From Anaerolinea thermolimosa (GTDB taxonomy: Bacteria > Chloroflexota > Anaerolineae > Anaerolineales > Anaerolineaceae), in the NCBI RefSeq assembly GCF_001050195.2, contig NZ_DF967965.1, positions 158,498-222,497 of the forward strand: a stretch of DNA of 64,000 nucleotides, written 5' to 3'. The translations under genes and the position numbers were made by a program. Positions 59,114-64,000 of the stretch are shown in pieces. The notes beneath the pieces are model-generated. The model searched no databases. It had not been told where the DNA came from and saw only the letters and a program-made list of their open reading frames with translations. Numbering within the stretch: the first letter of the stretch is position 1; the number at the start of each line of letters is the position of its first letter.

Positions 59114-59140
59114 GGGGTCAGTGGATGGGGTGATTGTACA

Positions 59141-60126
59141 GTCAGAATCCATAAATGCCCGTCAGGGCATTAAGACCGAGACCGACCCGCCAGGAACGCA
59201 AATCTGGCTGGAGCGTCAGAATCCATAAATGCCCGTCAGGGCATTAAGACTTTGTTGGCCGGATTGGCCTTGCTGGCCGGATTGGGTCAGAATCCATAAA
59301 TGCCCGTCAGGGCATTAAGACTGAGCGGGTGAGAAAAGTTGATAATCACGGTAGTCCTCCGTCAGAATCCATAAATGCCCGTCAGGGCATTAAGACCAAG
59401 CCGCGTCATCATTGGGGAATGGCCCCCCTATCAGGGGTCAGAATCCATAAATGCCCGTCAGGGCATTAAGACGGATTTGTGCTTTCATTGACGCCGAGCA
59501 CGCTCTTGGTCAGAATCCATAAATGCCCGTCAGGGCATTAAGACGCGGCCTGAGTTGCCGACGGGTCAAATCGATCACGAATGTCAGAATCCATAAATGC
59601 CCGTCAGGGCATTAAGACTTACAGGCAGGACATTCAAACTCAGCATAGAAAAAATTGTAGGTCAGAATCCATAAATGCCCGTCAGGGCATTAAGACTCAC
59701 GGCATGCTAATGTTATTGCATCACGATTCATCACGTCAGAATCCATAAATGCCCGTCAGGGCATTAAGACGTTCTATATCCAAGGAGCTCGCCCCCATCG
59801 AGCTCCTTCAGTCAGAATCCATAAATGCCCGTCAGGGCATTAAGACCGGTCAGACCGGGCAATGGAGGATGACATGGTATTCAAAAGTCAGAATCCATAA
59901 ATGCCCGTCAGGGCATTAAGACTAGTACAGGGATGAAAGTGTCCTTGTTTTCAACAATCCGTCAGAATCCATAAATGCCCGTCAGGGCATTAAGACACCT
60001 TGACCGCATACTGGTTGTACGCGGTCACATGCCCAAGTCAGAATCCATAAATGCCCGTCAGGGCATTAAGACGGGGCCGGTTCTCGTGCCCCTCCAGAAA
60101 GGCCGTCTCTCTCTGTCAGAATCCAT
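59141..60126 (+). CRISPR. CRISPR array, 13 full 36-bp repeats plus a truncated terminal repeat, 13 spacers
   Basis: The repeats are identical: they begin GTCAGAATCCATAAATGCCC and end GGGCATTAAGAC. The centre folds as AATGCCC-GTCA-GGGCATT, leaving an 8-base 3' tag ATTAAGAC, as expected of Cas6-processed crRNA of type I or III. Repeat starts are 59141, 59215, 59286, 59361, 59437, 59509, 59583, 59661, 59735, 59811, 59887, 59961 and 60037. A last repeat at 60115 keeps only 12 bases, which fixes the far end. Spacers are 35-42 bases. The promoter at 59085 gives the leader side. No cas1, cas2 or interference genes are in the window; a CARF protein is at 63181. Confidence 0.99.
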
Positions 60127-61557: not shown

Positions 61558-62615
61558 AGATGAAACCAAAGAACGGCAACAACGGCGCCCTGCCGGAAAG
61601 GGTGGCCATTGTATACAGCGATGCCCGGCGCGAGTACTTCCCGACCGAGGAGCAATACCTGACTGAAAAGGACGCCGACCGCGATGCCGCGCAGATCGGT
61701 CGCTATCTGGAGTCGCTGGGCATTGAGGTGTTTCTCTACCCCGGTGATGCCACCCTGCCCGAACGGTTGAGTGCAGACCGCCCGGTGGTGGTGATCAATC
61801 TGGTGGATTCATTCAAAGGAGAAGAAAACCTGGCGGCTACCATCCCGGGTGTGCTGGAGCTGTTAGAGTTCCCCTACACAGGGGCGGGCATTCTGGGGCT
61901 TTCGCTGGATACCAACAAATTCCTGGTGAAGAAGCTTCTTCAACAGCACGGCATTCCGGTGCCGCATTACCAGCTTTTCAACTCGCCGCGCGGGCACCTC
62001 GACCCTACCCTGCGCTTTCCGCTGATCTCCAAGCTGAACGCCGTCCACGGCTCGGTAGAGATCACCGCCGACGCCGTCTCTGAAACCGAAAAGCATCTGC
62101 GCGAACGCCTCCGCTACCTGATCGGCACGTACCATCAGCCGGTGCTGGTGGAAGAATTCATTGTGGGGCGTGAGATTTCGGCCATTTTGCTGGAGGGAAA
62201 GAACAAGAAGGTCTACCTGGCCGAAAGGGTGTTCACGCGTGAAGAGGGGAAGTACACTTTCGTCACCTTTGAAGACCAGTGGCTTTCGGCGCTGGGGACA
62301 GCCTTTCATTATGAACGTTTTGATGATCCCATCCTGAAGGAGTATGTGAAGCGCGCTTTCGATGTGACGAACATGCGCGATTATGGCAAGTTCGATATCC
62401 GGCTGGATCAATCGGGGCGCTACTTTTTTATCGATACCAATTGCAACCCGGCTTTTGGCGCCAAAGAGATGGATGTGGCGCTGGGGGCGATCCTTGACCT
62501 GTACGGGGTTTCTTTCTATGATGTGCTGAAGCGCCTGTTGCAGAAAACGGCGCGCCAGACTCAGGTGCAGGTGGCGGCATACGGGGGGAACGGAAAGGTT
62601 GGTGGGGTGAAATGA
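61545..62615 (+). CDS. ATP-grasp ligase (D-Ala-D-Ala ligase-like)
   Basis: A 356-residue ATP-grasp enzyme: VAIVYSDARREY, DRPVVVINLVDSFKGEENLAATIPGVLELLEFPYTG, LSLDTNKFLVKKLLQQHGIPVP, PLISKLNAVHGSVEI, VLVEEFIVGREISAILLEG and FDIRLDQSGRYFFIDTNCNPAFG (metal-binding Asp, Asn). It joins a carboxylate to an amine using ATP. The fit to true Ddl is partial (the N-terminal half differs), so it may act on an unknown substrate. GAGGTGAG lies 5 bases before GTG 61545; ATG 61560 is an alternative. Confidence 0.8.
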   Translation: MAPLKMKPKNGNNGALPERVAIVYSDARREYFPTEEQYLTEKDADRDAAQIGRYLESLGIEVFLYPGDATLPERLSADRPVVVINLVDSFKGEENLAATIPGVLELLEFPYTGAGILGLSLDTNKFLVKKLLQQHGIPVPHYQLFNSPRGHLDPTLRFPLISKLNAVHGSVEITADAVSETEKHLRERLRYLIGTYHQPVLVEEFIVGREISAILLEGKNKKVYLAERVFTREEGKYTFVTFEDQWLSALGTAFHYERFDDPILKEYVKRAFDVTNMRDYGKFDIRLDQSGRYFFIDTNCNPAFGAKEMDVALGAILDLYGVSFYDVLKRLLQKTARQTQVQVAAYGGNGKVGGVK

Positions 62616-63121
62616 ACGCTGACTTTGCATCGATTAAAGACCTTTTTGAACTGCTTTCGTATGTGGCCATTTTGCTGGGCATTCCAACGGGGTTATACCA
62701 GTATTACCGCTCGGTGAAGAAGGAACAGCAAGACCGCGAGTACGGCACGTATAACGCGCTGGATGAGAAGTATCTCCAGTTTTTAAAACTGTGTTTTGAG
62801 AACCCTGAGCTGGATGTGTTCGAAGTTCCCGACGCCGCGCCCCAGCCATTGAATGAAACGCAAAAGAAACAGGAATTGATTGCCCTGACGATGCTTCTTT
62901 CGATCTGTGAACGGGCGTATCTGATGTACAGCGATCAATCGACGGCGGTGAAACGGCGGCAGTGGTCAGGCTGGGATGGTTTCATCCGCGATTACTGCCG
63001 GCGGGAGAACTTCAGGCGGGCGCTGGCGCGGGCGGGTGAGGGGTTTGACCTGGGCTTTCAGGCGTACATCCGGCGGGTGCTGGCTGAAGTAGAAACGGAC
63101 GCGCTTAATCCTGGCGGGTAG
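62612..63121 (+). CDS. membrane-anchored small protein, unknown function
   Basis: A 169-residue protein. One N-terminal hydrophobic helix (LLSYVAILLGIPTGLYQYYR) is followed by a charged helical region (KKEQQDREYGTYNALDEKYLQFLKLCFENPELDVFEVP) and a C-terminal helical domain (QWSGWDGFIRDYCRRENFRRALARAG). The pattern is like many single-pass proteins of unknown function with a YxxLDxxY-type segment. It overlaps the ATP-grasp gene (ATGA at 62612-62615) and precedes the CARF gene by 59 bases. No family is recognised. Confidence 0.6.
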   Translation: MNADFASIKDLFELLSYVAILLGIPTGLYQYYRSVKKEQQDREYGTYNALDEKYLQFLKLCFENPELDVFEVPDAAPQPLNETQKKQELIALTMLLSICERAYLMYSDQSTAVKRRQWSGWDGFIRDYCRRENFRRALARAGEGFDLGFQAYIRRVLAEVETDALNPGG

Positions 63122-63180: not shown

Positions 63181-63693
63181 ATGCAGATGCATCACTCCAC
63201 GGTGCTGATCGCCACTCTGGGGAGCGAGCCCCAGGTGGTGACAGCCACCTTCGACTTGTTGCGCGCGCGGGGTGAAGAACCCGGGCAGGTGCAGGTTATT
63301 CATACCCTGGCAGATTCTGAGCCGATGGCTCAGGCTGTTGAGGTGTTACGTAAAGAAGCCGCGGCGGGCCTGCCGCTGGTGCTGGTGCCGCTGAAGCGAC
63401 CCGATGGCCGCCCCTTTGTCGATGTGGAGACGCAATCGGCGGCAGAGGCGGTCTTCCGGGCACTCTACCGGGCGGTGTGGCAGACCAAGCGCGCGGGTGC
63501 GCGGGTGCATCTTTCGATTGCCGGGGGGCGCAAGACGATGGCCGTGTTCGGCATGGTGACGGCGCAGCTGCTTTTCGAGGAGGGAGATCACCTGTGGCAT
63601 CTGTTCTCTGAGGGTGATTTTTTGAGGAGCCGCCGTCTGCACCCTCAACCGGGAGACGAGGTGCACCTGATGGAGATCCCTGTCATTCGCTAG
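63181..63693 (+). CDS. CARF-type CRISPR-associated protein (NE0113/ring-nuclease family)
   Basis: A 170-residue Rossmann-like protein: STVLIATLGSEPQVVTATFDLL at the N-terminus, LVLVPLKRPDGRPFVDV, and the CARF signature HLSIAGGRKTMAVFGMVTAQLL, HLWHLFSEG, LMEIPVIR. This fits the Cas_NE0113/CRISPR ring-nuclease type, which binds or cleaves cyclic oligoadenylate in type III immunity. GAGGATC precedes ATG 63181. It ends in TAG, and the same frame continues into an HTH domain. It lies 3 kb from the CRISPR array. Confidence 0.8.
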   Translation: MQMHHSTVLIATLGSEPQVVTATFDLLRARGEEPGQVQVIHTLADSEPMAQAVEVLRKEAAAGLPLVLVPLKRPDGRPFVDVETQSAAEAVFRALYRAVWQTKRAGARVHLSIAGGRKTMAVFGMVTAQLLFEEGDHLWHLFSEGDFLRSRRLHPQPGDEVHLMEIPVIR

Positions 63694-63708
63694 AGTGAGC
63701 TTTCGCCA

Positions 63709-64000
63709 GTGGCGCAGTCGCTGGCGCAGGTGGAAGACCCCTACCTGGCGCTGGAGGAAGTGCGGCGCCTGCAGTTGAATGAAAAGCTCAAACAGGCGCG
63801 GGTGTTTGTGCAGCAGATTCTCAGCCCGGCTGAGGCGCGGGTGGTGGCCCTGCTGGTGCGTGAGGGGTTGAGCGATGCCGAGCTGGCTTCACGGCTTTCG
63901 CTCTCAGCCCGCACGGTGGAGCAGCATTTGCGTTCAGCGTATGCCAAGGCCGCTCAGCACTGGGAGATGGAGGCGGTCAATCGCACGCAATTGATGGCGC
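63709..64000 (+). CDS. HTH (LuxR/GerE-type) domain, in frame behind the CARF gene, partial
   Basis: The frame is open from the codon after the CARF stop (63694) to the edge of the window. It encodes a Gln/Leu-rich linker (VAQSLAQVEDPYLALEEVRR), then LSPAEARVVALLVREGLSDA, ELASRLSLSARTVEQHL, a GerE-like helix-turn-helix. It is in the same frame as the CARF protein, separated only by TAG at 63691-63693. Either it is a separate gene starting at GTG 63709 with a weak ribosome binding site, or it is the DNA-binding half of a CARF-HTH regulator broken by a nonsense change. Confidence 0.6.
   Translation, partial: MAQSLAQVEDPYLALEEVRRLQLNEKLKQARVFVQQILSPAEARVVALLVREGLSDAELASRLSLSARTVEQHLRSAYAKAAQHWEMEAVNRTQLMA

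Follow-up and report, generated by a model that had tools for sequence, protein, structure and literature searches.

A TAG stop codon between the CARF and HTH halves of a predicted type III-A CRISPR-Cas leader gene in Anaerolinea thermolimosa

Introduction

Nucleases that a messenger activates are the best-known feature of bacterial type III CRISPR systems. Among the CARF proteins that carry a DNA-binding half, the archaeal CARF-HTH factor Csa3 is described, in passages of PMC9704534 and PMC8699464, as a cA4-binding CARF domain fused to a DNA-binding domain. Moreover, the C-terminal winged HTH (wHTH) of Sis0811 is reported to be auto-inhibitory in a section of PMC10018336. The same section states that mutation of Ser11 cuts the cleavage by the ring nuclease Sso2081 by about 80%, that the equivalent of this serine is apparently non-critical in Sis0455, and that motif I has been proposed as a signature of those CARF domains that degrade the messenger. 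As for the family considered here, proteins with a CARF domain of the NE0113 type were predicted to be transcription regulators by Makarova and colleagues (2014) in a passage of PMC4012209. A part of Hoikkala and colleagues (2025) takes Csx14 as a member of the Crn1 family and applies a limit of 250 residues (PMC12409355), by which, on our reasoning, fused CARF-HTH proteins would be passed over. PADLOC (CARF3) and Pfam (PF09623) already list the fused family, and no paper devoted to the bacterial CARF-LuxR HTH family was found in the open-access literature, which was searched in part.

Results

Domains and coding signal on both sides of the TAG

The window, which covers positions 158498-222497 of contig 1, is the whole stretch of 64,000 nucleotides that was analysed and ends within the gene under study. 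The relevant features, all of them on the plus strand, are the following:

59125-60074, plus strand: CRISPR array region located upstream of the operon and containing the 36-base repeat GTCAGAATCCATAAATGCCCGTCAGGGCATTAAGAC 13 times
63181-63693, plus strand: CARF domain frame (CARF3 / Cas_NE0113 / Csx14-like), 170 aa plus the TAG
63691-63693, plus strand: TAG at the CARF/linker junction; its alignment column holds Trp for 63 of the 80 distinct homologs and a stop for none
63694-64000 and on past the window, plus strand: LuxR/GerE-type HTH preceded by a linker helix, both in frame with the CARF domain, placed by Pfam matches and the model of the fused ortholog L041
63709-63711, plus strand: GTG, the first in-frame ATG/GTG/TTG past the TAG and a candidate re-initiation site, with 15 bases between the two

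The CARF frame starts at the ATG at 63181 and is terminated by the TAG, after which the same frame stays open to the end of the window and closes at a TGA 117 codons past the TAG (L002:5543-5545, equal to window 64045-64047; L002 position + 58502 = window coordinate). In a Pfam search, the first half matched Cas_NE0113 (PF09623) with 105.9 bits, over a cut-off of 23, and the second half matched Sigma70_ECF (37.6 bits, cut-off 21.1) and GerE (28.8 bits, cut-off 23.5). The original prediction of a CARF frame ended by this TAG, with a linker and a LuxR/GerE-type HTH following in frame, was thus borne out by the frame reading and by the Pfam matches to both halves. Furthermore, the model of the fused ortholog L041 (pLDDT 93.1) comprised a CARF domain, a helical linker and an HTH, with helices at residues 192-218, 221-233, 237-244 and 248-265; the residue equivalent to the TAG was placed directly past the last CARF strand, opening the first short helix of the linker. 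Sequence relatives of the second half of L041 included GerE (1fse) and other LuxR-type HTH proteins.

When 78.4 kb of contiguous sequence was scanned for codon usage, with 45 long ORFs as the training set, three in-frame stops turned out to be flanked by coding-like sequence both before and after. The highest downstream coding score of the three was that of the TAG at 63691 (0.40, and 0.45 over the first 20 codons), on a scale on which the 45 long ORFs had a mean of 0.21, while the first-20-codon scores of the other two were 0.10 and −0.11. These two were discarded: across the stop at window 14144 (minus strand) the translation was, by eye, unlike one protein, and just past the stop at window 49638 (plus strand) the coding signal was absent. 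The open frame beyond the TAG at 63691 is more than chance. In the same scan TAG terminated 5 of the 45 long ORFs, being therefore an ordinary terminator in this stretch of the genome.

Position in the operon

The window gene is the leader gene of a type III-A CRISPR-Cas operon that otherwise looks intact. Downstream on the same strand, and all found intact when searched, are Cas10/Csm1, Csm2, Csm3, Csm4, Csm5, a TIGR02221 CARF-HEPN protein and a Card1-like nuclease; further downstream are Csx15 and Cas1, both also intact, a cas2-sized frame (assigned by its size), a second CRISPR array and then, nearby, an intact Cas6. Cas10/Csm1 scored 600.7 bits (cut-off 170), and 118 bases separate the end of the HTH frame from the cas10 ATG, so the gene sits beside the cas10/csm genes and on their strand, as a type III-A accessory gene does. 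The second array (L002:15587-16696) lies 3′ of the cas1/cas2 frames and has the identical 36-base repeat, and the operon thus has an array on either side. Beyond approximately 200 bases of unrelated sequence, a further, degenerate copy of the repeat was seen within L002:16861-16928. On the other side, just 5′ of the CARF gene, an ORF of 169 aa (window 62612-63121) has a hydrophobic N-terminal stretch; NCBIfam and PADLOC gave no match for it, and Pfam none over the cut-off.

A similar position was frequent among the relatives. In 25 of 41 named loci, which are part of the 80 kept loci, cas10 (20 loci) or cmr1 (5 loci) started 0.9-1.35 kb from the start of the match and on the same strand, the next gene being judged from this distance; four of the 41 loci (L050, L061, L075 and L079) had less than 400 bases downstream. 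No match to any of 12 cas queries was found at nine of the 41, five of which had at least 1.6 kb downstream. Heading such operons is compatible with a regulator of the operon. A palindromic Gibbs search upstream of 14 genes of the window subgroup established no shared operator: the palindrome score at width 16 was 147 in the 14 upstream regions (nulls, 129-142) and that at width 20 was 161 (138-152 in six shuffled sets), several sites resembling −10 boxes. Control of the operon is for this reason proposed from position and domains.

The CARF half

The CARF half is predicted to be complete as a domain, the AlphaFold model of the 170-residue product having a mean pLDDT of 95.8. With this product as the query, the best solved matches in Foldseek were Sis0455 (7z55; E 9.2e-08, TM 0.65 by query) and Sso2081 (7ygh), together with the CARF domain of Cad1. 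The Crn1 enzymes Sso2081 and Sis0455 were its best solved matches by sequence and among the best by fold. The label 'CARF-type' therefore holds, as the nearest solved relatives are Crn1 ring nucleases and the CARF domain of Cad1. Csa3, whose structure 6wxq appeared at Foldseek rank 42 for the fused ortholog L041, ranked further from the window CARF than Crn1 and Cad1 did. In addition, Csa3 is associated with type I-A systems and has a winged HTH, in contrast to the type III-A association and the LuxR/GerE-type HTH of the window gene.

In comparison with Sso2081, the GGRK motif is retained, with a lysine equivalent to Lys106, whereas motif I, which is GTS in Sso2081 (Thr10, Ser11), is GSE in the window CARF and GTE in the family consensus. 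The serine that is important for the cleavage by Sso2081 is thus absent. The Crn1 combination of a GTS motif I with Lys106 was not found in the window CARF, and the NCBIfam Crn1 model gave 12.9 bits against the window frame (cut-off 125). On these residues, ring-nuclease activity of the window CARF is uncertain.

Fused relatives

The PADLOC profile PDLC01851 (CARF3, 279 positions), which has no curated cut-off given and whose CARF3 clade identity was taken from PADLOC names, matched the 170-aa window query over positions 2-166 (E 2.2e-61). In L041 the match covered residues 11-285 (profile positions 2-275), and in the paralog from the same genome residues 1-283 (profile positions 1-277). The profile therefore spans CARF and HTH almost end to end in these two proteins, whereas the window product stops at the junction and the full architecture, with the C-terminal HTH in one polypeptide, is absent from it. 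The Csx14 model TIGR03642 scored 65.5 bits for the window gene and 58.3 for the intact L041, both under the curated cut-off of 90.35, and was matched by 31 of the 31 members of set A4 at E <= 0.001. The intact family resembles the ring nucleases Sso1393 and Sis0811 in having a CARF domain and a C-terminal HTH, but the HTH is of the LuxR/GerE type instead of the archaeal winged type, and the likeness found here consists of the Foldseek match 7pq3. A DNA-binding HTH joined to the CARF domain, as in CARF-HTH transcription factors, is what the relatives have and what the TAG parts in the window gene.

On the genomes surveyed, the fused CARF-HTH protein is the usual form of the gene in Chloroflexota. 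Within the genus, four of the five genomes had matches (G000, G001, G003 and G004) and none was found in G002; G000 is the window's genome, one unbroken fusion was present in G003 and two in G004, and the frame in G001 exits at a contig end. Across 147 genomes of the family, 23 matches were obtained at E <= 1.2e-25, the window copy being the sole one with an internal stop. The surveys of the order and of the phylum, for which 400 genomes each were drawn evenly from the larger groups and at most six candidates were scored per genome, gave 62 and 65 matches, respectively, at E <= 1e-20, 10 of which were shared. Among the 117 distinct matches listed from both, about eight of which are partial and end before or start after the junction, a stop at the junction was present in the window copy only, so that homologs are indeed normally fused. 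Internal stops were seen in two of these 117, namely the window gene and G172:C13:7032-7853. The latter was rejected as a second junction stop, its TGA and TAG apparently falling in a frameshifted stretch of the CARF domain. Likewise, the short matches G248:C233, G193:C537 and G242:C98 were rejected as split genes, each of them reaching a contig end. In the deltaproteobacterial L071 (JACQEL010000663.1, 1486-2300), a lesion in the linker shifts the HTH into another frame; its halves are parted by a frame change with the Trp kept, while those of the window gene are parted by the TAG. None of the homologs examined had the two-gene layout that the original prediction had set against itself, with a natural end of the CARF gene and a separate, well-started gene for the HTH.

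Residue at the position of the TAG

In the alignment of the 80 distinct homologs, the 63 with Trp in the TAG column (the paralog from the same genome included) were followed by Leu (7), Arg (4) and Tyr (2), with Ile, Pro, Val and Met appearing once each. Trp is therefore not invariant, as another residue was present in 17 of the 80. The column sample consisted of 41 of the 80 kept loci, 55 loci from the order and phylum surveys (L168-L197 and L204-L228), P0001 and P0002, that is, 98 sequences, from which 16 duplicates and the window gene, present twice (P0001 and L182), were subtracted. Over the compared stretch, the G003 gene is identical to L041 and one of the G004 genes to L047. L081-L116 and L118-L120, most of which are longer frames with a different C-terminal part, were kept apart from the count, as were the loci of the family survey (147 genomes) and the order and phylum matches that had no locus. 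As the aligned sequences were stop-to-stop frames, a stop in this column would appear as a gap, and the only gap was that of L182, the window's own gene. The TAG is one base from the Trp codon that is usual at its position. An Arg was present at the junction column in L042, L054, L059 and L190, the HTH of the first three being close to that of the window gene.

Second copy in the same genome

An intact paralog was found on contig 2 (L003:1222-2079, minus strand) as an unbroken CARF-HTH frame of 285 residues. Read with an X at the TAG, the window frame had 38% identity to it over 260 positions (E 1e-51), with both domains aligned. Its immediate downstream neighbour is a RAMP (cmr1-like) gene, and a strong match to the Cas10 palm domain lies at a distance of about 2 kb. 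This domain had four matches in the genome, two of them strong, one in the window operon and the other near the paralog. By its sequence, the genome thus seems to hold two type III systems with one CARF-HTH gene apiece.

Fate of the HTH half

With the topology fixed and the CARF and HTH halves compared, the HTH/CARF (C/N) ratio of the tip branch was 0.82 for the window gene and 1.03 at the median, which places the gene 50th of 80 from the top. Conserved columns numbered 36 in the CARF half and 12 in the HTH half, and the window gene departed from 2 of the former (median 4) and 1 of the latter (median 1). Neither the tip branches nor the conserved columns gave a sign of accelerated divergence or decay in the HTH half, which means that the stop is recent, or that the HTH still matters, or that the stop is not real; the absence of decay fits a kept function as well as recency. 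Besides, of the 79 single changes by which the intact ortholog would gain a stop, 4 fall in codons 171-181 around the junction, so that random nonsense at this place would be uncommon (approximately 5%), although unremarkable after the fact.

The predicted Shine-Dalgarno pairing before the GTG at 63709 was equalled or beaten by 43% of random positions. The test is a weak one, as the start of the CARF frame is itself inseparable from random positions, 34% of which were as strong. In the same weak test, some in-frame starts further along outscored both the GTG and the CARF start; among them, the TTG at 63775 had a predicted pairing of −9.3 kcal/mol (random mean −4.0, sd 2.7), with the paired stretch sitting far upstream of the TTG. 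Finally, no CUA (amber) anticodon was found in the 51 tRNA matches of the genome that were read with ARAGORN, a survey in which 150 of 189 first-look candidates were scored and a divergent tRNA might thus be missed.

Discussion

Intact members of the family would be one-component regulators with an N-terminal CARF domain, a joining helix and a C-terminal LuxR/GerE-type HTH. Upon target recognition, Cas10 would produce a cyclic oligoadenylate, the CARF dimer would bind this messenger, the DNA binding of the HTH would change and the type III operon headed by the gene would be tuned, while the CARF domain may also cleave or remove the messenger. The role of a cyclic-oligoadenylate-controlled transcription factor can reasonably be proposed for the intact family and is a putative one. 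The main product of the window gene would be a complete CARF domain without the DNA-binding half. As the TAG ends the protein at a domain boundary, sensing would persist, uncoupled from the transcriptional output of the III-A operon. Moreover, given the auto-inhibitory wHTH of Sis0811, any catalytic activity of the window CARF could be changed once the HTH is lost.

The most probable explanation, and one that we hold with some assurance, is that a nonsense substitution arose recently at the domain boundary, leaving the CARF domain complete and uncoupling the HTH. We infer that the TAG is a recent change in this lineage; the species is represented by a single genome, which bears on both the fixation and the recency of the stop. 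A sequencing or assembly error, under which the organism would make an ordinary fused CARF-HTH protein, is unlikely. It would agree with a usual Trp codon one base away, with an HTH half that has not decayed, with the other operon genes searched being intact and with the lack of a second strain for comparison. However, the assembly (4.17 Mb, 6 contigs) is reported to be 99.99% complete with 4.69% contamination, the scan of 78.4 kb showed no other comparable interruption, and in such an assembly natural gene disruptions are expected more than stops made by base calling, which counts against an error.

The remaining alternatives keep a function for the sequence past the TAG. It is improbable that the gene is functionally split, with a stop at the TAG and a restart at the GTG at 63709 or at another internal start giving a free CARF domain and a separate GerE-like HTH protein. 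The in-frame GTG a few bases past the TAG, the stronger pairing predicted for the TTG at 63775 (with its stretch far upstream), the HTH half that is not decaying and the existence of stand-alone LuxR-type HTH proteins, such as the GerE matched here, would suit it, but the pairing before the GTG is ordinary, in a test that is weak, no homolog examined has a two-gene arrangement with a started HTH, and the lesion in L071 is a different kind of change. A decoupled regulator, whose free CARF domain would bind or destroy the messenger while a re-initiated GerE-like HTH would run the III-A operon messenger-free, is quite improbable. Least credible, and very improbable indeed, is a programmed or suppressed read-through of the TAG that would yield some full-length, switchable regulator: the frame is unbroken beyond the TAG and the junction is at the start of the linker, but the CUA anticodon is absent from the tRNA matches read, TAG is in ordinary use as a terminator of long ORFs in the same stretch, and no homolog examined shares the stop. 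Fused homologs with Trp are the outcome that the original prediction tied to a recent inactivation or a switchable regulator; of these two, the switch is not supported, given the unshared stop, the lack of a CUA anticodon among the tRNAs read and the ordinary use of TAG.

Taking the nonsense substitution as the preferred reading, the stop codon itself is probably an ordinary mutation, a lesion that one genome carries in a gene of a known kind. Messenger-controlled transcription in bacteria has a good candidate in the conserved CARF-LuxR HTH gene that heads many type III operons in Chloroflexota. Furthermore, sensor and DNA-binding halves that are parted beside an intact second copy offer a natural comparison for the contribution of the HTH. 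The recognition helices of the two copies differ (SEHTIANQLTRIY in the paralog vs. SARTVEQHLRSAY in the window gene), so that the paralog is probably not a stand-in and a substitution in trans is doubtful. As a separate observation, the Csx15 gene (L002:13663-14046) shares one operon with a Crn1-related CARF gene, and a passage of PMC12409355 reports Csx15 and Crn1 together at seven loci.
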